Positions 24,172 to 35,037 of a stretch of 53,280 nt of DNA are shown here, one piece after another. Source of the DNA: Nitratifractor sp. (lineage in GTDB: Bacteria > Campylobacterota > Campylobacteria > Campylobacterales > Sulfurovaceae); the NCBI GenBank assembly GCA_015488535.1, contig WFNP01000072.1, positions 1-53,280 of the forward strand, read 5' to 3'. Every line of letters begins with the position of its first letter. Within the stretch, counting starts at the first letter, position 1. The notes beneath the pieces were generated by a model. It was not told the DNA's origin and made no database searches. It worked only from the letters and a program-made list of their open reading frames with translations. A program made the position numbers and the translations under genes.

Positions 24172-25095
24172 TCACTTCTCACAAATACAGCAATTTGCCT
24201 TACCATTGTCTTTGGCTCTGTAGAGTGCTTTGTCAGCATACTCTAAAAGCTCTGCTTTGTTGTTGGAATATAGAGGATAAAAACATCCTCCGATACTGCA
24301 ACTGCTCTTTATGGTATTACCTCCATACTCTATAACAAAATGTGATAATTCAGAGAGTTTTGTTTTTAATACATCTATCGATTTTTGAGTATTCAGATTT
24401 TCTACAATCAGTGCAAATTCATCTCCTCCAATTCTAAACAGAATATCATCTTCTCTTATACTTTGTCTGATATATTTTGGTAAACTTTTCAATACCTCAT
24501 CACCTGCAGGATGTCCGTAATTATCATTAATATATTTAAAATCATCCAAATCTATTAGAAAAAGCCCCATAATAGTATCAGACTGCTCTGCTTCAGCCAT
24601 AACCCTATCCAGACTCTTTTCAAAATTTAGACGATTTGGCAAACCGGTAACAGTATCATAGAGTGCTTTTTGCTCCAAATCCTGTATCTTCTCTTTTAAG
24701 TGCTGTTCATAATATCTGGCTCTTACCAAATTCATACACACTTTTTCAAGTTTGACTAACAGTTTTTCTACATCAAGAGGTTTTATAATAAATGAATCTA
24801 TCCCGATATCTATTGCTTCAAGCAGTATATCCCTTTGATCAAAAGCACTGATAATTAAAACCGGCACAGAATCATCAAACTCTTTGATATTTCTTGCCAT
24901 CTCCAAGCCATTCATTATAGGCATATTTATATCAGTAAGCACAATATCAGGTCTCTCACTATAAAAGATATCCAGCCCCTCTTGACCATTATAAGCTTGA
25001 TATATCTTTTTGAAATCTTCCTCAAACAAGATGCTTAACATCGCTTGTGTCTCTTTATCATCTTCTACTATCAATAGTGTGAAATCTTTAAACAT
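24172..25095 (-). CDS. Response regulator with GGDEF output (diguanylate cyclase)
   Basis: This 307-residue protein joins a receiver domain (residues 1-120; acid pair EDD, phospho-acceptor in VLTDINMP, lysine in IIKPLD) to a GGDEF domain (about 150-305) with intact RIGGDEFALIV. The product inhibition site RxxD is present five residues before the motif (REDD). It should make cyclic di-GMP when phosphorylated. It lies at the edge of the signalling locus, convergent with the phosphoesterase gene seven bases away, and has AAGGAT upstream of its ATG. Partner kinase unknown; the large kinase at 25966 is a candidate by position only. Confidence 0.92.
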   Translation of the reverse strand: MFKDFTLLIVEDDKETQAMLSILFEEDFKKIYQAYNGQEGLDIFYSERPDIVLTDINMPIMNGLEMARNIKEFDDSVPVLIISAFDQRDILLEAIDIGIDSFIIKPLDVEKLLVKLEKVCMNLVRARYYEQHLKEKIQDLEQKALYDTVTGLPNRLNFEKSLDRVMAEAEQSDTIMGLFLIDLDDFKYINDNYGHPAGDEVLKSLPKYIRQSIREDDILFRIGGDEFALIVENLNTQKSIDVLKTKLSELSHFVIEYGGNTIKSSCSIGGCFYPLYSNNKAELLEYADKALYRAKDNGKANCCICEK

Positions 25096-25214
25096 ATCAA
25101 ATCCTTGTTTTTACTATCTGAATTATAAAATAAAAATATCAGTATAATAACTGTAAAATCTGTAGAATTTGGTAATAAACCTTATAAATAGAAAAATATA
25201 ACCATATTTAATAC

Positions 25215-25220
25215 TATAAT
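25215..25220 (+). promoter_or_regulatory. -10 element (TATAAT) for the OmpR-type regulator
   Basis: TATAAT lies about 85 bases before the ATG at 25306, implying a leader of about 80 bases. A second TATAAT on the same strand at 25143-25148 is an alternative. The gap is extremely AT-rich, so chance matches are likely. Confidence 0.3.
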
Positions 25221-25305
25221 AATTTTGAGTCCGTATTTTATAAAGATATTATCATTTATGCGGATATAAATTAAATCTAAACTTTTTGAGGCAGTAACTA
25301 TTAAA

Positions 25306-25965
25306 ATGAACCCTATAAAAATCTTATTGGTAGAAGATGATGAATTTGCATCAAAATTAATTTACGACTTTTTAACAGAGTGTGATTTTGAAGTAGTGCC
25401 TGTATTTACGGCAACTGATGCAATATCTTATATCAAAAGTGAAAACTTTGATATAGTCCTATTGGATATAAATTTACCGGATTATGATGGATTTGAAGTT
25501 CTAAAGAGCATAAGACAATACTTATTGGTCCCTATAATTGTAACAAGTGCTTACAGTGATACCAAATTTAAAATACTCTCTTTTAGATATGGTGCAAATG
25601 ACTATATGTGTAAACCATTGGCTCTAGAAGAGTTGGAAGCAAGGATATGGTTACAGTTAAAGAAAAACAGTCATATTAAAATTGATGAAGAAGAAGCTGT
25701 TTTTCAAATAAAAAATTCAATTGTATATTTTAAAAACAAACCATTGGAATTGACTTCAATAGAATTTAATATATTATCATATCTTATAAAGATGAAAAAT
25801 CAAACAGTAAAAAGAGAAGATATAATAGAGTATATATCCAATATCAAATCCAATCGTTCACTTGATAATCATATCAAAAATATTCGTAAAAAAATTGCTA
25901 AAATCGATGCCAACACCCAATATATCAAAACTATATATGGAGTCGGCTATACTATGATATTTTAA
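25306..25965 (+). CDS. OmpR/PhoB-family response regulator
   Basis: The 219-residue DNA-binding regulator has an N-terminal receiver (LLVEDDEFASKL acid pocket, phospho-acceptor in IVLLDINLPDYDGF, switch threonine in VTSAY, lysine in MCKPLALEEL). Its C-terminal winged helix (about 125-219) has ELTSIEFNILSYL, the recognition helix in RSLDNHIKNIRKKI, and the wing IKTIYGVGYTM. It is the only DNA-binding output in the signalling locus. Its stop codon abuts the stop of the convergent kinase gene with no base between, so the pair may be regulated together. Confidence 0.93.
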   Translation: MNPIKILLVEDDEFASKLIYDFLTECDFEVVPVFTATDAISYIKSENFDIVLLDINLPDYDGFEVLKSIRQYLLVPIIVTSAYSDTKFKILSFRYGANDYMCKPLALEELEARIWLQLKKNSHIKIDEEEAVFQIKNSIVYFKNKPLELTSIEFNILSYLIKMKNQTVKREDIIEYISNIKSNRSLDNHIKNIRKKIAKIDANTQYIKTIYGVGYTMIF

Positions 25966-28900
25966 TTACAACTCTTGAAGAGGAAGTCTAATTTTAAATA
26001 ATGCTCCCTCTTGGGTGTTTGTTACACTCAAAGAACCCTTCATATGCTTTTCTATAATTAATTTACTCATATAAAGTCCAAGACCTGTACCATTTTTATC
26101 TTTTTTGGTAGAAAAGTATGGTTCAAAAATTTTCTCAAGCAGATCTTTGCTTATACCTCCTCCAGTATCTTTTATATAAATTACAACTTCTTTATCATAC
26201 TTTTGGATATCTATCTCTATCTCTTTTTTTTCACTATTATTCTCCAAAATAGCATCTTTTGCATTTCCTACCAGGTTCATAACAGCTTGTCCAAGTTCAT
26301 TTGGATAACCATAAAGCTGGATATTTTTATCACCATTTAATACAAATTTAATAGAGTTTTTTGTTAATAATGGATTCATAATGGAATGAATATGCTCTAT
26401 CACATCGTCCAACAAAAAATATTTTTTCTCTTTATCTGGTTTGAAAAAGTTTCTAAAATCATCTATAGTATCAGACATTTGTTGTATCAATCTATAACTG
26501 TCTTTGTGAAAACTCTCTATTTTTTCATCATTTAGTTTCCCTTTTTTATACTGTATTACAAGAGTTTGCATCAATATCGAGAGGTTATTTAAAGGCTGTC
26601 TCCATTGATGTGCAATCATAGATATCATCTCTCCCATTTGTGCCAGACGGCTTTGATGAAGCATCATTTTATCTTTGTCACGATTTAGAGTAACCTCCTT
26701 TGCTACTCTGTCTTCTAATGTTTTATTAAGATAATCTATCTCTTTATTTAGTCTTTTCAGCTTTATATTTGCAATAGTAATAATTAAAATAATAATTCCT
26801 AAAACAGCTATAACTTTAAACATCAAAACATAATCTATCTTTTTAATTACTGTCTGTGATGTGGTCCATTTATCATTGATGATTTGGTGAGTCTCAGGAG
26901 GAATATCTGATAATACTTTATCAATAATACTGTATAGCATATCATCTCTTTTGCCTACAGCCATAGAGAGCTTCATTTTCCAATCCAAATATCCTGCTAC
27001 TTTTAGTCCTTTTAGTCCATATACTCGTTGATAATATGCCAAAATAGGAAGAGTAGCTACTGTAAAATATGCTTTACCACTTCTGACCTTTTCAAAAGCT
27101 TCTTCATAAGTTTTAGTTCCTACAATTTTAAGTCCCGGATATTTTTTATATAGTATCTGAATAAGCCCGCTTCCTTCTTTGCGAGCCATACTCTTATCTG
27201 CAATAGTATTAAAAGATGTAACCAAAGGACTGTTGTCACGGGTTATTATAGCTATTGGATACTGCAGATATGGTCTTGTAAAGTATGCATACTTTTCCCT
27301 TATTTCAGTTCGTGTAGCAGCAGGGAGAATATCACATTTTCCTTCTTTAAGATATTCTTGAGCTTCTATCCATGTACTTGTGGGAATATATGTCAATTTC
27401 ACATGTAATTTATTGGCAATAAGAGAAAGTGTATCAATAGATATGCCTTTAGGTTTATCATTTTCTACAAACTCTATAGGTTTCCAGTTGGGATTACAAC
27501 AATATCGTATTTCATGCAATCCTTTCAAATAATCTTCCTGGGCTATACTAAATGGACTTATCTCCTTTCTTTGTATATCAAACCATTTTGATTTTATTCT
27601 CTTTTTCTCTTCATCTGTAACTGAATCAATAGCCTTTTGAAATATTTCACGCAAAATTGGTTCATCTTTTCTCACACCTATACTGAGCTTTGTTTGCAAA
27701 TCCGGAGTATCACTTATTGACATATAAGGTATTATCAGATTATATCTATTCATCAAATACTTAACGACTCCATAACTCTCTATGAGTGCATCGGCCTTAT
27801 TATTCAAGACAGCCGTAATACACTGCAATACATTATCATAACTCTTCAGATGTATTTTGGGATAGTATTTTTTCAAATACCACTCTATAAAAAATCCTTT
27901 TGGAACTGCTACTGTTTTGCCTTTCAAATCTGATATATGTTTAAATCCTGCAGTGTTTGAAAAAATAGCTTTTCTTGAGACATCATAAGGTGTGGTGAAA
28001 TTGATAAATTTTTGTCTATCTTTTGTCTTTACAATATTGGATATTACATCTATACGACCCTCTTTTATGAGTTTGAGAAACTGATCCCATGTATAACCAC
28101 TGACATACTCTATTTTTATCCCAAGTTTTTGGGCAAGCAGATTCATATAATCTATCACAAATCCTTTTGCCTGTCCATTTTCATTGAAATTATATGGTGC
28201 CCAGTTTCTTTCATTGTGGACTTTTATTGTCCCTTTTTTACGAAGATATGCAATCTCTTCTTTTGTCAATTTAACATGTTTTACTCTATTATATTTATGA
28301 TTTTCATAAATTTTTCTTATTCTGTTCAACTCCTCTTTGGGCAAAGAATAAAAATATGAGAGTTCCGGAATTGGAGAAGCTTTTGAAAAATCAAAATCCT
28401 TTTTATATACAATTATGACTTTACCAAGATTTAAACTATCTTGATCGTTAAAATAGATTATATTGGCTCTTATTTCACCTGTAGGTTGTGTGGGATAACT
28501 TTTTGACACAGTCAAAAAAGTCCTGTTTAATTTATTATCTATAATCTTGATAGATAATATATTGTCATTCCTCAAAAATATTTCAAGTATTTTTCTCAAC
28601 TTTTTTGGGTGTAACATATAAAGATACTGAGATGATATATCAGCAACAAGATTGATATAATCTATAAGAGGATAAAAATTGTGAGTATTATTGTATTTAA
28701 CAATCTCCTCATATATACCATTGGCTTTAATTCTTTTTAAGCCTTCATTAAATTGGTCTCGAAGCTTTTTTGAGCGAAATACACTACAGTATCCTTTATC
28801 TTTTTTAAAAACAGGATGATAATCAAATTCATCATGATTATTGAACATGGTTTTATACCACTTGAAAATATTTTTATCTATCAAAATGGCATCATATTCA

Positions 28901-29445
28901 CCAGCAAAAAACTTTTTGACATCATCTTTTTGTGACGGATTATCATGATAATGCTCTTTATATACACCATTTACAGGATTGAAATAGTATTGAAACTTCT
29001 CTCCCAAATCATGCCATGCTCCATTCCATGCAACAAAATTTATTCTTGTCAAATCTTTAATGGAATCTATCTTTAGATGCTTGTTGTGTGGAGTAATGAC
29101 ATAGTTTTTATAAAAGACAAAATTATCGCTGTAATATATACCGTCTGCATCTTTTTCTTTGCTTATAGATGATGAACCGTTAAAGTCATTATGCTCTTTT
29201 AAAATATTCTCCAGATAGTATTTGGACATTTGCACAGCCTCTATTTTATACCCATAAGGCTCCAAAATGGCTCTCATTAAATCAGGTTCTATACCCTTGG
29301 CACCAGTTTTACCAAATACAAAAGGAGGCTTGTCAAATCCAAAAGCAATTTTAATAGTATCTGAAGCTGACAGACTCTGAATAATTATAAAACATAAAAA
29401 AATAGATATATACAGTGATTGTAATATTTTATAATTATTATTCAT
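25966..29445 (-). CDS. Sensor histidine kinase with three tandem solute-binding domains
   Basis: The 1159-residue protein has a signal segment (1-27) and three periplasmic type 3 solute-binding modules: about 30-255; about 405-625 (KVHNERNWAPYNF, GFVIDYMNLLAQKLGI); and about 643-865 (NPNWKPIEF, GISIDTLSLIANKL). A membrane helix (about 873-893) and coiled coil follow, then a complete kinase core: phospho-acceptor His946 in MIAHQWRQPLNN, N-box NLVGNAKDAI (Asn1061), DTGGG (1093), and GTGLGLYMSK (1119). Residues 256-400 link modules one and two. Such domains bind amino acids or similar small solutes, so this is probably a BvgS-like nutrient sensor, but it has no receiver domain of its own. It overlaps the upstream gene by eight bases. 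Confidence 0.93.
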   Translation of the reverse strand: MNNNYKILQSLYISIFLCFIIIQSLSASDTIKIAFGFDKPPFVFGKTGAKGIEPDLMRAILEPYGYKIEAVQMSKYYLENILKEHNDFNGSSSISKEKDADGIYYSDNFVFYKNYVITPHNKHLKIDSIKDLTRINFVAWNGAWHDLGEKFQYYFNPVNGVYKEHYHDNPSQKDDVKKFFAGEYDAILIDKNIFKWYKTMFNNHDEFDYHPVFKKDKGYCSVFRSKKLRDQFNEGLKRIKANGIYEEIVKYNNTHNFYPLIDYINLVADISSQYLYMLHPKKLRKILEIFLRNDNILSIKIIDNKLNRTFLTVSKSYPTQPTGEIRANIIYFNDQDSLNLGKVIIVYKKDFDFSKASPIPELSYFYSLPKEELNRIRKIYENHKYNRVKHVKLTKEEIAYLRKKGTIKVHNERNWAPYNFNENGQAKGFVIDYMNLLAQKLGIKIEYVSGYTWDQFLKLIKEGRIDVISNIVKTKDRQKFINFTTPYDVSRKAIFSNTAGFKHISDLKGKTVAVPKGFFIEWYLKKYYPKIHLKSYDNVLQCITAVLNNKADALIESYGVVKYLMNRYNLIIPYMSISDTPDLQTKLSIGVRKDEPILREIFQKAIDSVTDEEKKRIKSKWFDIQRKEISPFSIAQEDYLKGLHEIRYCCNPNWKPIEFVENDKPKGISIDTLSLIANKLHVKLTYIPTSTWIEAQEYLKEGKCDILPAATRTEIREKYAYFTRPYLQYPIAIITRDNSPLVTSFNTIADKSMARKEGSGLIQILYKKYPGLKIVGTKTYEEAFEKVRSGKAYFTVATLPILAYYQRVYGLKGLKVAGYLDWKMKLSMAVGKRDDMLYSIIDKVLSDIPPETHQIINDKWTTSQTVIKKIDYVLMFKVIAVLGIIILIITIANIKLKRLNKEIDYLNKTLEDRVAKEVTLNRDKDKMMLHQSRLAQMGEMISMIAHQWRQPLNNLSILMQTLVIQYKKGKLNDEKIESFHKDSYRLIQQMSDTIDDFRNFFKPDKEKKYFLLDDVIEHIHSIMNPLLTKNSIKFVLNGDKNIQLYGYPNELGQAVMNLVGNAKDAILENNSEKKEIEIDIQKYDKEVVIYIKDTGGGISKDLLEKIFEPYFSTKKDKNGTGLGLYMSKLIIEKHMKGSLSVTNTQEGALFKIRLPLQEL

Positions 29446-31918
29446 TTAAATACTCTAATATTGAATTTTTGACACGCTCCATCTCTTCATTATATTTTTT
29501 TATAAATCCCGGCAGTAGTTCCAGCTTGTTATAGAGATATAATTTATATATCTCATTTGCTGCATGGTATAAATCTTTTGCACCTATAGTGCCGGATAAT
29601 CCCATAATATCCAGCATAAGTTGCTGGAGAGCTTCCAGCCTTTTTTGCTCATAAAGACTCACCGCAACCTTGCCACTTTCCCCATATACTTCAAGAAACT
29701 CTTTTAAAAGCTCTCTGTAAAAAATAGGATTACCGCCACTCATCTTCAATCCAACATCTATATCCAATCCGTCTATATCTCTCTTGTGCTGAGATACAGC
29801 TATATTGTCTTTGGCTTTGTCTCTGTTTTTGCCTACAAATATATCCAGGACTGTATATAGTTTTCCTATATTTATAGGCTTTGGTAAAAAGGCATCCATA
29901 TCACTGGCTTTCATCTTATCTATCTCATGCTCCAATACAAGAGCAGTCAAAGAGACTATAGGCAGACTTTGGACACCTTGAAGCTCTCTAATCTTTTTGG
30001 TAGCGGTAAATCCGTCCATGATTGGCATATTGATATCCATAAGCACAAGGTCATAATATTTGCTACCTTTATCCTCTATCATATGCAGAGCCTCTTCTCC
30101 GTTGGATGCTATATCTATATATATTCCTGCTCTTCTTAAAACTGTATCTATCATTCTTTGATTTATTTCATTGTCTTCTGCCACCAAAATTTTGGTTCCG
30201 GCAAAGTCGGCCAAATCTTGAATCTTTACATTCGGTTTCTCTTCTACATTGGAGATAAATTCTCTTTTATGGTTACGATTTTTCTCTTTGTCTCCAAACT
30301 CCTCTTTTATCTCTTTGGAGTAAAGATTTAATATCAGCAAAAATACATGCTCTTGATTTAGAGGTTTTTTTACACTTTTATCAAACAGATAGCTGTATAG
30401 ACTCTTTGACTCACCCTGAAGAATATTTTCCATACATACCATTTTTACATCATATTTCTCTCTCAACATTTGACTGTATGTCTCAAAACCGGGATAGATA
30501 AGATCACAATCTATAAGCACAATATCATATTCGCTCAAATTTGGACGCTCTTTTACGAAATCATCTGCAGTATCTATCGTCACTTTGTGTCTGAAATATT
30601 CAAAGAGATTTTTTTGTGCCACTGAAGCATGATAGTGTCTGTTTGTAATATATACACTCTTTTGAGTATATTTTTTGCTTGGCAGTCTATATTTTCGTCT
30701 CTCCTCTTTTAATCCTCCTACCGGAATAGAAAGTTCTATTACAGCCCCGCCATTTGGCAGTTTTTTTGCAATAATATCACCCTCCATCAAAGATACCAAT
30801 TCATAGGCTACATATAATCCTAGTCTGCTGTATGTGCCGGTCTCATCTACAAATTGAGGCACAAAATAGTTCTCTTCACTTATATTTTCATGCTCTATCT
30901 CACCATAGGGTGTAATTTTCATCTCTAAAAAAGAGTTATCCTGATATGGTTTGTCTATAGAGATAGAGAGTACTACTTCGCCTCTTTCCATGAGTGAAAA
31001 TTGATGCTCAATCAAATTACGCAAAATATTGACTGTATTGGTAAAGTCACCAATGGCATAAACAGGCAATGAATGCTCTATATCCAAAACCAGTTCAATA
31101 TCTTTTTGAGGATATTTACCTACAAATGAGCCAACCAAATCATCCAACATATTATTGATTTTAAACTTCTCATGCTCAATAGTCACTTTTTTGGATTTTA
31201 TTTTCAAAAACTCCAAAAGGTTATTGGTGGTATCAAGTATTTTATTCTCTGTCAATACCATCTCTTTCAACTCTTTTGGAGCTTTTTCATCACCTATATC
31301 AGATATTACCTTTTGGGTATTTTCTATCATATCTTTACTCATAGAGTAGATATTTTCACCCAGTTTGGAGAACAGCTCATGCTGTTTTATCTCCATCTCT
31401 TCCTGTCTTTTACGCATAATTCTATGTTGCTGTAAAATACGGTTTATCTGCAAAGAAGAGAAAAACAGAGCCAATATTCCTATTACTGCCAATGCAAACA
31501 GAGCTATCCACAGGGACCAATCCGTATCTTGTGACGGAGTATCTATGGTAGTATATACTATCTCTTTTTTGGTTTTTGGTGCTGATGAAATCAGAGATAC
31601 CAAAACAGCATCAGGAAAAAGTTTTTTTGTCTGAAAATATATCACAGCCAACTGTTTATTATCCGCAAAAGGACCAAATACAATGATATAATCTTTATCT
31701 TCAGACATAACTCTAGGCATTTTGTCTGTAGATATATTTATCTCTGAGAGTAAAGAATCAGAAGATATTATACGCTGTGCTTTTTTACTCAAAAGCTTTG
31801 CACTGTTTAGATTGTCCGTATCTCCCAATATTATCAATTTCTCTACAGGCAGACTTCCAAAACCCCATATTGTCAATGACAACAATATCAATATTACTTT
31901 TACCATACTTTTATACAT
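29438..31918 (-). CDS. Pseudokinase: SPOR-like domain, degenerate kinase core, two receivers, degenerate Hpt
   Basis: Numbering is from a GTG at 31927 that gives 829 residues; the ATG at 31918 (826 residues) overlaps the previous stop by eight bases and is preferred. The order is signal segment (8-25), SPOR-like periplasmic domain (28-110, with DYIIVFGPF), membrane helix (137-157), then a HisKA-like helix pair in which the phospho-acceptor histidine is Glu191 (LFSKLGENIYSMSKD). The ATPase-like domain has N-box NLIEH (Asn to His308) and no DxGxG. A degenerate receiver (424-540) precedes an intact receiver (578-700, VAEDNE, Asp631, KPIN). The Hpt-like tail has Leu772 where histidine belongs. 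It should neither bind ATP normally nor relay phosphate except by Asp631. Paralogue of 32455-35037. Confidence 0.88.
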   Translation of the reverse strand: MYKSMVKVILILLSLTIWGFGSLPVEKLIILGDTDNLNSAKLLSKKAQRIISSDSLLSEINISTDKMPRVMSEDKDYIIVFGPFADNKQLAVIYFQTKKLFPDAVLVSLISSAPKTKKEIVYTTIDTPSQDTDWSLWIALFALAVIGILALFFSSLQINRILQQHRIMRKRQEEMEIKQHELFSKLGENIYSMSKDMIENTQKVISDIGDEKAPKELKEMVLTENKILDTTNNLLEFLKIKSKKVTIEHEKFKINNMLDDLVGSFVGKYPQKDIELVLDIEHSLPVYAIGDFTNTVNILRNLIEHQFSLMERGEVVLSISIDKPYQDNSFLEMKITPYGEIEHENISEENYFVPQFVDETGTYSRLGLYVAYELVSLMEGDIIAKKLPNGGAVIELSIPVGGLKEERRKYRLPSKKYTQKSVYITNRHYHASVAQKNLFEYFRHKVTIDTADDFVKERPNLSEYDIVLIDCDLIYPGFETYSQMLREKYDVKMVCMENILQGESKSLYSYLFDKSVKKPLNQEHVFLLILNLYSKEIKEEFGDKEKNRNHKREFISNVEEKPNVKIQDLADFAGTKILVAEDNEINQRMIDTVLRRAGIYIDIASNGEEALHMIEDKGSKYYDLVLMDINMPIMDGFTATKKIRELQGVQSLPIVSLTALVLEHEIDKMKASDMDAFLPKPINIGKLYTVLDIFVGKNRDKAKDNIAVSQHKRDIDGLDIDVGLKMSGGNPIFYRELLKEFLEVYGESGKVAVSLYEQKRLEALQQLMLDIMGLSGTIGAKDLYHAANEIYKLYLYNKLELLPGFIKKYNEEMERVKNSILEYLNE

Positions 31919-32435
31919 ATTTTTCACTTTTCAAAATTTTATGCATCAAATCTTTTTGCTGATACTCCAATTCATCCTGCATCTTTTTGATTTTAGATGC
32001 TCTGATTAATACGAATATAATACCAGCTATTCCTATTAGAGCAATAGCTATCAATACAGACCATTCAAGTAAAAAACTCTCATAATCTCCATTCTTTATA
32101 TCTTGTTTGACTAATACCCTTTTAGCATCTTTATTATCTATTATCAATGCTGAGGGATACTTTTTGTGTAAAATTATACTGATTTTGTTTGTTTCATTCC
32201 TATCTTTGACTGCTGAGACAAGTATCCATTGATTAGCTACTTTTATACTTTTTACATGAGGCAATGATTTTTTATTTTGTTTATCAAAATCTTTACTTGA
32301 TATCTCTTTGTTTATTTTATTGACCTGTTTTTCTGCATCTTCTTTGCTTCCTTGCATATCCAGCACAAGCAGACTGTTACTCCCATATACAGAGAGTGTA
32401 ATTAACACGGTTATTAAAAGATGTAAAACTTTCAT
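31911..32435 (-). CDS. Small membrane protein with SPOR-like periplasmic domain
   Basis: This 174-residue protein has a signal peptide (MKVLHLLITVLITLSVYGS), a periplasmic domain (about 20-110), one membrane helix (about 124-146) and a short charged coiled-coil tail (KIKKMQDELEYQQKDLMHK). The periplasmic domain repeats the pattern of both neighbouring pseudokinases: WILVSAVKDRNETNKISIILHKKYPSALII here corresponds to DYIIVFGPF and FPDAVLV there. It looks like their N-terminal third without the cytoplasmic modules, so it may pair with them in the membrane. The gene begins 19 bases after the upstream gene with AGAGGAT as ribosome site and overlaps the downstream gene. I know of no named family. 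Confidence 0.82.
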   Translation of the reverse strand: MKVLHLLITVLITLSVYGSNSLLVLDMQGSKEDAEKQVNKINKEISSKDFDKQNKKSLPHVKSIKVANQWILVSAVKDRNETNKISIILHKKYPSALIIDNKDAKRVLVKQDIKNGDYESFLLEWSVLIAIALIGIAGIIFVLIRASKIKKMQDELEYQQKDLMHKILKSEKYV

Positions 32436-32454
32436 ATAATCCTCTTTTTATATA

Positions 32455-35037
32455 TTAAACATTATGCTCAAACTGCTCTAGATATACTCTGATTGATTTG
32501 CTTACTCTATTTAATGCATCCTGATAATCTTTTACATAATGTTGCAATAAAGGCAGTTTATTATATCCAAATACTCTATGAATCATAGATGATGCATGAT
32601 ATACCTCTTTTGCCCCTATAGTTCCGGCAAGTCCCATCACATCGAGATTGAGTTGCCTCAGCTCTTCTAATCTGTGTTCGATAAGATACTTCATCGCTTT
32701 ATCTCCGCTGTCTCCGTATATCCTCAAAAACTCTTCAAGAATCTCTCTGTAAAATATAAGGTTATTATCTACATGTCTGAGTCCCTCTACAATATCTATG
32801 CCTTCAAGTTTGAGAGGTTTACTGGTTTTTTTGGATACTTTTTTCTTCTGAGGCTTATATTTAAGATACATCTTAAATACTGTATATAATTTACCAAGAT
32901 GCAAAGGTTTTGGAAGGTATGCTCTCATACCACATTTTTCCATTCTCTCTATTTCAATCTCTGTGCTTAATGCTGTCAATGCTACTATTGGCAGTTTGTC
33001 AGCTCCGGGTATTTGAAGTATCTCCTGAGTGGCTCTGTATCCATCCATAATAGGCATATTTATATCCATCAAAACAATATCGTAACTCTCAGGTCCTTTG
33101 TTTACTACCAACTCTACAGCTTCTTTACCATTTTCTGCTGTATCTAGCTCCATACCTGCATTTTCCAAAACTCTAAGTATCATTTTGAGATTTATCTCAT
33201 TATCTTCGACTATGAGGATACGGGATTTTCTAAAATCTGCAAAACTCTCAACTCTGATATTTGGAGCAGTAGGCACATTTCTGATAAATTTCTCTTTTTT
33301 ACTGCCTCTTAGTCTTTTATCTTCGATGAGACTTCTTTTGCCATCTTTGTCATCAGAATCAACATCTGTATATAGATCAATTATGAGTAAATATACCCTC
33401 TCTTGATTTAGTGGTTTTTTGACCCTTTTATCAAAAACTTCATACCATGAGTGTTCGGTATCTATATCGAAGATATTACTCAATCCTACTATTTTGACAC
33501 CTCTTTGTCTTTTTAGTATCTTTAGATATCTTACAAAATCATCATATAGCAAAGACTCCTCAACCAGTATTATGTCATACCCTTCAAGGTCTGGCATTCT
33601 CTCTCTGAAATTCTCCTCTGTATCTATTGTTACATTATGTCTGAAATAGGAAAACATATTTTTTAATGCTTTGGAAGCATGATAGCTTTGATTGAGAATA
33701 TATACATCTTTTTCTATCATGGAGCGTTCAGGAAGAGGATATTTTCTATACTTCTCTTTACCTTCAGGCTCATCCATTGGTATAGATATGCTTATCAGTT
33801 TGGATTCTTCCGATATCGTCTGAAGAGCTATTTTTCCTCCCATCAACTGTATCAGACTGTGTGCCACAAAGAGTCCGAGTCTTTTATATTCTCCTCTTTT
33901 TTCATCAAAATATGGAACAAAATAGTCTTCTATACCTATCTCTTCTTTTATAATGCATCCATTTTGGGTAATTTTAATCTGTAAATCCAATTTACCATTG
34001 TATGTATTGTATGATGCAATATCTACCAATATCTCACCCTCTTCAAGATACTCTATCATATGCTCCAACAAATTTGTGCAAATCTCTCCCATCTGGGTAA
34101 GGTCTCCGACTAGATACTTGGGCAAAGCTCTGTCAGGATTGAAAACAAGCTCTACTGCATCTCCATGAAACCTGTTTACCAAAGGACCTACAATATCATC
34201 AAGCATACTATTTATATTGAATGAGTCTTCCTTGATTTCAACTTTATGTGCTTTGAGTTTCAAAAATCTCAACAGTTTTTCTGTAGCATTTAAAAGCTTG
34301 GACTCTTTACGCATCACATGTTTTAGTTTGTGACCCACATCTTCTTGTTCGACTTCTGAGATTACACTCTGGGTGCATTGCAAGACATCTTTGCTCATAC
34401 TATATACACTCTCTCCCAAATCAGAAAAGAGTGAACTTTGTCTATGCTCCATCTCTTTTTGTTTGTTTCTCATCTCTTCATATTTTTGAGTTATTTTTGC
34501 TACTTTTACAGATGATATATAAAGGTCTATGAGAAATATTATTATCAATAGTATTCCAAAACCGCTAATCCACCACATCCATCCTCCACCTATATCACCT
34601 GAATATTGATTGGATGTTTCTCTTATGACTACGGGGTGCAGTGGTTTTGGATTTGGCTGTTGGCTTGTTGTATCTGTTTTAAGACTCTGTCTGGGTGAGG
34701 ATTCCTTCTCATTTGTAAGCTCTTTTTTTGCAGATGTTGAAACAGGTATGGTAAAAGCTGAGGGAAATTTGTCTTTGGCTCTAAATAATATAGTTGCCAA
34801 TTTTGCGTCATTATCAACAGGACCTGCTATCAAAAGATAATCTTTGCCACTTTTTTGTAACTTTACAGTAACTTTAGTAATATCATTTTGAGATAAAATA
34901 TTTTCAAACTCTTTTTTCTTATCAAGCATTACGGATTTATTCTTTCCTACCGTCAATACTATATTGAATGCTGAAAATACAAACCCTGTAAATACTACAA
35001 GCAAGATTATAATTCTGTGTATTGGATTGATTCCCAT
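32455..35037 (-). CDS. Pseudokinase paralogue: SPOR-like domain, degenerate kinase core, two receivers, degenerate Hpt
   Basis: The 860-residue protein is the first gene of the operon and a paralogue of the one at 29438. An N-terminal hydrophobic segment (8-24), SPOR-like domain (25-97, DYLLIAGPVDNDAKLA), a Pro/Ser-rich linker (98-145) and a membrane helix (153-172) lead to the coiled coil. In the kinase-like part the histidine site is Glu209 (LFSDLGESVYSMSKD) and the N-box is NLLEH (His326); DxGxG is missing. A degenerate receiver (443-557) lacks the acceptor aspartate (ILVEESLL). The second receiver (606-727) is intact with EDN, Asp658 and KPLH. The Hpt-like tail has Leu798 in place of histidine. 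AAAAGGTAAGTAG precedes the ATG. Confidence 0.88.
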   Translation of the reverse strand: MGINPIHRIIILLVVFTGFVFSAFNIVLTVGKNKSVMLDKKKEFENILSQNDITKVTVKLQKSGKDYLLIAGPVDNDAKLATILFRAKDKFPSAFTIPVSTSAKKELTNEKESSPRQSLKTDTTSQQPNPKPLHPVVIRETSNQYSGDIGGGWMWWISGFGILLIIIFLIDLYISSVKVAKITQKYEEMRNKQKEMEHRQSSLFSDLGESVYSMSKDVLQCTQSVISEVEQEDVGHKLKHVMRKESKLLNATEKLLRFLKLKAHKVEIKEDSFNINSMLDDIVGPLVNRFHGDAVELVFNPDRALPKYLVGDLTQMGEICTNLLEHMIEYLEEGEILVDIASYNTYNGKLDLQIKITQNGCIIKEEIGIEDYFVPYFDEKRGEYKRLGLFVAHSLIQLMGGKIALQTISEESKLISISIPMDEPEGKEKYRKYPLPERSMIEKDVYILNQSYHASKALKNMFSYFRHNVTIDTEENFRERMPDLEGYDIILVEESLLYDDFVRYLKILKRQRGVKIVGLSNIFDIDTEHSWYEVFDKRVKKPLNQERVYLLIIDLYTDVDSDDKDGKRSLIEDKRLRGSKKEKFIRNVPTAPNIRVESFADFRKSRILIVEDNEINLKMILRVLENAGMELDTAENGKEAVELVVNKGPESYDIVLMDINMPIMDGYRATQEILQIPGADKLPIVALTALSTEIEIERMEKCGMRAYLPKPLHLGKLYTVFKMYLKYKPQKKKVSKKTSKPLKLEGIDIVEGLRHVDNNLIFYREILEEFLRIYGDSGDKAMKYLIEHRLEELRQLNLDVMGLAGTIGAKEVYHASSMIHRVFGYNKLPLLQHYVKDYQDALNRVSKSIRVYLEQFEHNV

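Follow-up and report, generated by a model that had tools for sequence, protein, structure and literature searches.

The window analysed here is a 53,280-nucleotide contig (C72) of the 1.87-Mb genome of a Nitratifractor species of the Sulfurovaceae. It encodes, all on the minus strand, two paralogous proteins that we call A (860 residues, 32455–35037) and C (829 residues, 29438–31927) and, between them, a smaller companion (174 residues, 31911–32435) whose gene overlaps that of C by 17 nt. By their sequences, A and C belong to a family of BarA-like hybrid kinases that is conserved in Campylobacterota and from which the histidine chemistry has been removed while the second receiver has been kept. 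Both sit in the inner membrane by an anchor and have in the periplasm a SPOR-like domain in common with the separate companion. An initial annotation of this DNA had described A and C as a pair of pseudokinases; it did not mention the third gene, which is homologous to their N-termini.

The two proteins are 40% identical across their whole length and run from the periplasmic domain through a transmembrane helix and a coil into DHp, CA, REC1, REC2 and Hpt domains; the prefix pseudo- marks below those domains whose active residues are lost. In A, the pseudo-DHp domain (the former HisKA, 34234–34485, delimited from an AlphaFold2 (AF2) model and a profile–profile alignment) has E209 at the phospho-histidine position (34411–34413), as confirmed by residue checks and alignments, and in C a residue check and the family alignment place E191 there (31355–31357), each within LFSxLGE. 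The +1 glutamate is also gone, being Ser in A and Asn in C. In the pseudo-CA domain (the former HATPase, 33763–34233 in A) the N-box asparagine is a histidine, H326 in A and H308 in C, within NL[IL]EH, and DxGxG is absent from both. Pseudo-REC1 is a degenerate receiver with the Lys-Pro pair kept; in A (33367–33711) a Glu stands in for the acceptor Asp. REC2 (32866–33225 in A, 29837–30199 in C) is intact, with the receiver Asp/Asp/Thr/Lys set present (E611/D612, D658, T688 and K710 in A), the acceptor D658 or D631 lying within LMDINMP, and Pfam scores of 84.4 and 80.7 bits. The terminal pseudo-Hpt domain (32467–32805 in A, 29453–29779 in C) has a leucine at the histidine position, L798 or L772, ahead of MGLxGTIGA, and in A this is followed by the conserved D799. 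All the residues named in the initial annotation are thus where it put them, and its statement that one receiver was kept agrees with a degenerate REC1 and an intact REC2.

Response_reg (REC2) and a weak HATPase_c were the only Pfam matches in A and C; the HisKA and Hpt models recognised neither protein, the pseudo-Hpt of C giving a sub-threshold match of 16.7 bits against a cut-off of 24.6, and HisKA was found in 0 of 47 aligned members. Because the HisKA model recognises no scanned member, such proteins would be missed by the usual counts of pseudokinases. The domain order DHp-CA-REC-REC-Hpt is that of BarA, TorS and ArcB, which are also the best NCBIfam matches; however, A and C have lost all the histidine sites and score 175–178 bits, well below the BarA cut-off of 890. 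The +1 glutamate of CrdS, E372, was shown to be needed for HisKA kinase activity (PMC3510030), and with several catalytic residues lost, among them the histidine and this glutamate, the kinase is therefore disabled several times over. By their sequences, A and C cannot autophosphorylate, lacking the histidine, the +1 Glu, the N-box Asn and DxGxG, and that they cannot relay a phosphoryl group, since the Hpt histidine is missing.

We considered whether the histidine might simply have shifted by a few residues. In a MAFFT alignment of the family that included active hybrid kinases, the glutamate of the pseudokinases fell at the histidine column. Profile–profile alignment placed E209 on the histidine of the active hybrid kinase L200 (FFANISHEIRTP) with no gap, and a plain BLASTP alignment of the earliest-branching member, L162 (LLVNVSEKIQEP), with L200 likewise set Glu on His and kept the Pro at +5. 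The three alignments concur and rule out a shifted histidine. Structure prediction, one of the checks proposed at the outset, returned a kinase fold. The AF2 model is a confident one (mean pLDDT, the predicted local distance difference test score, 82), in which the DHp helices and the CA domain are followed by two domains folded as receivers and by an Hpt bundle of helices, and its best matches in the PDB were ShkA, RetS, other kinases and DivL.

Strong matches to the family were found in 99 of the 175 Sulfurovaceae genomes searched and in 43 of 399 genomes sampled from the order; at its weak end, each of the two lists takes in canonical kinases. With redundancy removed, the relatives number 86, found in Sulfurovaceae and in Campylobacterota of the Sulfurimonas type, and the conservation counts below are based on these. 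In a quick tree of the DHp-to-Hpt part, which leaves some nodes open, the 87 rows form one clade (Shimodaira–Hasegawa-like approximate likelihood ratio test, SH-aLRT, 100) with the active kinases outside it. No clade member has a histidine at the HisKA or the Hpt site (0/86). The HisKA site is Glu in 73 members (85%), Asp in 4, Gln in 3 and Tyr in 3, with single others; it is acidic in 77 of 86 and ranks 68th of 714 columns in conservation. The +1 Glu is retained in only 6/86. REC2 keeps its Asp in 82 (95%) and its Lys in 84 (98%), and the positions of E611/D612 are 97–99% conserved. At the N-box position we found Tyr (34), His (18), Asn (13), Phe (10) and Asp (8), and at the Hpt site Leu (38), Val (17), Ile (13), Arg (7), Phe (4) and others, never His, followed at +1 by Asp in 80 of 86. 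The glutamate, the REC2 site and the Asp of the pseudo-Hpt are therefore conserved, whereas the N-box and Hpt columns vary, and the His and Leu of A and C are one local form of each. The expectation that all three replacements would be conserved in homologues was borne out for Glu only, and the reported loss of DxGxG is true of the clade of A and C, while DTGxG or a trace of it persists in many relatives.

The purifying selection on these proteins was estimated from the ratio of nonsynonymous to synonymous differences (pN/pS), pooled over 15 close pairs, one of which (L102/L120) consists of active relatives. The ratio was 0.135 for pseudo-DHp, 0.117 for pseudo-CA, 0.131 for pseudo-REC1, 0.096 for REC2 and 0.144 for pseudo-Hpt, compared to 0.273 for the N-terminus and transmembrane region. 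The dead domains are constrained nearly as strongly as the intact receiver, and reading frames are intact in almost all members. Because pN/pS is close to 0.1 and the glutamate is kept family-wide, the proteins are judged to be maintained by selection and not to be decaying, as the initial annotation had proposed; the range across the cytoplasmic domains is 0.10–0.14. The argument then given, that the same replacement in two diverged copies points to selection, does not stand, since the losses were inherited from an ancestor and the whole clade lacks both histidines; this shared ancestry also rules out independent convergence of A and C. Nor is there support beyond conservation for the idea that Glu mimics a charged state, as Glu is a poor mimic of phospho-histidine and other replacements occur. 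A and C combine a histidine kinase fold, the loss of catalytic residues and maintenance by selection, and on these grounds are probable pseudo-histidine kinases, with a predicted regulatory role in a two-component network.

The tree also suggests an order in which the chemistry may have been lost, with the Hpt histidine going first, then the HisKA histidine, and the ATP-binding motifs last. This is because the clade neighbours L082/L085 and L194 have the HisKA histidine and have lost that of Hpt, and because the basal member L162 has Glu at the HisKA site, yet an intact N-box Asn and DTGIG. In two hybrid kinases of Sulfurimonas, L082:7863-10550 and L085:7851-10520, nothing is lost from HisKA, the N-box, DTGIG or REC2, but Met replaces the Hpt histidine; they are possible intermediates. 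The duplication that gave A and C is older than their split from L045 of genome G003, which shares the pseudokinase-companion-pseudokinase arrangement. Upstream of L162 (genome G084), a frame that stops ~10 nt before the pseudokinase ends in another pseudo-Hpt (ASELKGVLAKIGA), indicating a tandem pair in that genome also.

The strongest new result of our analysis is the pairing of the periplasmic domain with the companion. In A this domain spans residues 24–98 (34744–34968), with a predicted beta-alpha-beta-beta-alpha-beta order and a pLDDT of 86–97 per block. The companion consists of a signal or anchor, a periplasmic domain of the same predicted order, a transmembrane helix and a short coil that ends about where the pseudo-DHp would begin. 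A profile built from companions only matched the N-termini of the pseudokinases (E = 2e-12 for C and 3e-7 for A), so the two are homologous. A companion directly adjoins 33 of the 35 pseudokinases in which the periplasmic domain is present and none of the 49 in which it is missing; in L020 and L165 it was confirmed by eye. On the tree the domain changes 9 times and the companion 8 times, and the two agreed in 6/6 informative independent pairs on starred branches (sign test p = 0.031). Because companion and domain occur together, the pairing suggests a heteromeric periplasmic and transmembrane assembly. As for the fold, the predicted topology of the N-terminal domain and of the companion agrees with that of solved SPOR domains, and the top 20 Foldseek matches include the SPOR domains of CwlC (1x60; probability 0.98, target TM-score (TMt) 0.61) and RlpA (6i05/6i09), with E values of 0.025–0.15; ferredoxin-like folds score equally. 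A SPOR-domain sequence search against the PDB returned nothing relevant.

One genus, g10, offers a lead to a partner. In 4/4 of its genomes that were examined, the pseudokinase gene runs directly up to that of an active hybrid kinase or shares a few bases with it, and these operonic kinases carry FFAN[ML]SHE[IV]RTP. The g10 pseudokinases (L247, L248, L249 and L250; 653–665 residues) are encoded directly before the kinase and are without the periplasmic part and helix 1 of DHp. The closest homologue of the g10 kinase in the window genome is G000:C8:6744-8321 (45% identical where kinase and receiver are compared), which for this reason is the best candidate partner there. The window genome also encodes two Hpt proteins recognised by Pfam, on contigs C18 (a frame of CheA length) and C28 (histidine kept), and these are possible phosphodonors for REC2. 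The companion and the operonic g10 kinase are concrete candidates for partners.

The explanation that we favour, with moderate confidence, is a pseudokinase complex anchored in the envelope, with REC2 as its switch, which would control active hybrid kinases or the receivers of these. In this model companion and pseudokinase would pair through their homologous periplasmic, transmembrane and coil segments; REC2 would take a phosphoryl group in trans from another kinase or an Hpt protein, or would bind one of these, and would be the phospho-switch; and the four-helix bundle of pseudo-DHp, with its conserved Glu, might be where a phosphorylated receiver or an active hybrid kinase docks. In this way the assembly could tune an active hybrid kinase or its receiver in response to the state of the envelope and of REC2, phosphorylated or not, much as in the DivL/CckA pathway or in RetS/GacS. 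A more specific version, which we put forward only tentatively, is that a His-Asp-His phosphorelay kinase has become, in most Sulfurovaceae, a two-protein allosteric device that senses cell-wall state and controls active hybrid kinases, made up of a hybrid pseudokinase dead in phosphotransfer, whose only switch is a phospho-Asp, and of a SPOR-like membrane companion that co-evolves with it and is a truncated homologue of the pseudokinase N-terminus. Several observations weigh against the favoured explanation. Pfam SPOR (PF05036) matched only 3 of 38 members, with a best E of 0.007 and under the gathering cut-off, and all the Foldseek SPOR matches had E >0.01; because neither is significant, the periplasmic domain is called SPOR-like and no more. 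A small subclade (L035, L043, L164 and L176) is without the REC2 Asp as well. No partner conserved throughout was found, most members standing alone among housekeeping genes, and the operonic kinase was seen in one genus only, whose pseudokinase itself lacks the membrane domain and the first helix of DHp.

A serious rival, although we consider it rather unlikely, is that the family acts as a phosphate sink or competitor, with REC2, and the pseudo-Hpt as a decoy in the manner of plant AHP6, taking up phosphoryl groups from active kinases, or binding the receivers of these, with no onward transfer. An intact REC2, and a pseudo-Hpt that has lost its histidine but has a strongly conserved core and the Asp at +1, would suit such a role, as would the occurrence of REC–pseudo-Hpt units on their own. 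A sink, however, needs neither pseudo-DHp nor pseudo-CA, nor the Glu, nor the pairing of periplasmic domain and companion, and leaves the conservation of all of these unexplained. Alternatively, pseudo-DHp might be a dedicated phosphatase of a receiver, for which the histidine is not strictly needed: HisKA phosphatase activity depends mainly on a Thr or Asn at +4 and can do without the His and the +1 Glu (PMC3510030). Of the 86 members, 34 have one of these two residues at +4, but 36 have Asp, Ser or Glu there (Ser in A and C), and both N375D and N375A abolish the activity of CrdS (PMC3510030). A phosphatase acting through a residue that is not conserved in the family is inconsistent, and we regard this role as distinctly improbable.

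The initial annotation had proposed as phosphodonor the active SBP_bac_3 histidine kinase encoded at 25966–29445 on the minus strand, and one could imagine a dedicated module in which this kinase, with the regulator encoded at 25306, phosphorylates the REC2 domains. The kinase gene is on the same strand as gene C and its start overlaps the end of C by 8 nt. In relatives from the genus, however, the order is kefB-bioB, the pseudokinase (with companion in some) and yfcE, and the kinase, regulator and GGDEF genes of the window are not there. Orthologues of the kinase (64–66%) in G005 and G006 are on different contigs from the pseudokinase, the kinase/regulator pair is adjacent in G001 and G011, which have no full-length pseudokinase of the family, and G003, the nearest genome with a tandem pair, has an orthologue of neither. 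These gene orders and orthologues rule out a conserved unit with the kinase, the regulator and the GGDEF protein encoded at 24172; such a module is highly unlikely, and the kinase is a local neighbour and not a conserved partner. Least credible of all is that A and C are what is left of a phosphorelay kinase in decay and have survived by chance. The unequal degradation of the ATP-binding motifs along the tree speaks for this, but the nearly always intact frames, the low pN/pS and the conservation of the Glu, REC2 and the pseudo-Hpt Asp over a divergent clade refute it in practice.

Several described proteins share features with A and C. RetS of Pseudomonas, the closest match to the kinase core fold (6dk7/6dk8), is likewise a hybrid that regulates another hybrid kinase, GacS, but it has a different sensor and, to our knowledge, neither a companion gene nor a pseudo-Hpt. 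Plant pseudo-HPt proteins of the AHP6 type have the Hpt fold without its histidine, which in AHP6 is an Asn; they are soluble single domains, whereas the pseudo-Hpt of this family is fused to a receiver and has Leu, Val or Ile at the site. The Caulobacter pseudo-histidine kinase DivL (4q20) resembles A and C in its HisKA fold without the histidine, its lack of kinase activity and a replacement that is maintained, but it has Tyr in place of their Glu and belongs to another phylum; it has PAS domains and, as far as we know, no receivers or Hpt. A Tyr as in DivL is found in L043, L044 and L176 of genus g11, in which the REC2 Asp is Asn and no companion adjoins. DivL, itself active neither as a kinase nor as a phosphatase, senses DivK~P (PMC4211667). 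RcsD, the partner of RcsC in Enterobacteria, is also a homologue of hybrid kinases that is anchored in the membrane, has an ATPase domain that is inactive and acts in envelope stress (PMC7418988), but it keeps a functional Hpt histidine and relays phosphate, where A and C have Leu and keep a receiver. The best overall fold match, Caulobacter ShkA (6qrj; DHp-CA-pseudo-REC1-REC2), differs in being an active kinase gated by cyclic di-GMP at REC1 (PMC12632262).

A missing histidine has been reported for 0.9% of HisKA domains and 0.9% of Hpt domains (PMC12632262). Pseudo-histidine kinases are already known; the loss of both histidines with a receiver kept, together with a companion, appears to be new. 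In the open literature that we consulted there was no described family in which the HisKA and Hpt histidines are both gone and a receiver is kept, none that has a truncated companion, and no paper on this family among those on Sulfurovum kinases or on SPOR domains in kinases. The bacterial pseudo-histidine kinases known to us are mostly single cases. Here, early branches retain parts of the catalytic machinery, so that the conversion from enzyme to regulator can be traced stepwise.

Between the pseudokinases and yfcE, the window holds at 24172–29445 the SBP_bac_3 kinase, which has three periplasmic-binding stretches, a winged-helix regulator and a REC-GGDEF gene, an insertion by comparison with relatives. 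Stand-alone REC–pseudo-Hpt proteins, also without the Hpt histidine, exist elsewhere, which indicates that the REC2–pseudo-Hpt unit has been reused. One is encoded in the window genome (L202:2273-3085, G000:C47:10272-11084; 270 residues, FIVDIEGLSGTIGA), by a gene that has 8 nt in common with the end of a gene for an MscS-like channel, and similar proteins with a transmembrane segment occur in G001, G010 and G011. A link between such proteins and MscS was rejected, as no MscS was seen beside the other REC–pseudo-Hpt proteins L038 and L039. The same contig, C47, encodes a REC-only protein (L203:2397-3215) that is close to the REC2 and linker of the pseudokinases and whose N-terminus has two copies of a repeated segment of the DEKRLVLSAKKKGFKGLSPQEKDAVLKYKKIL type.

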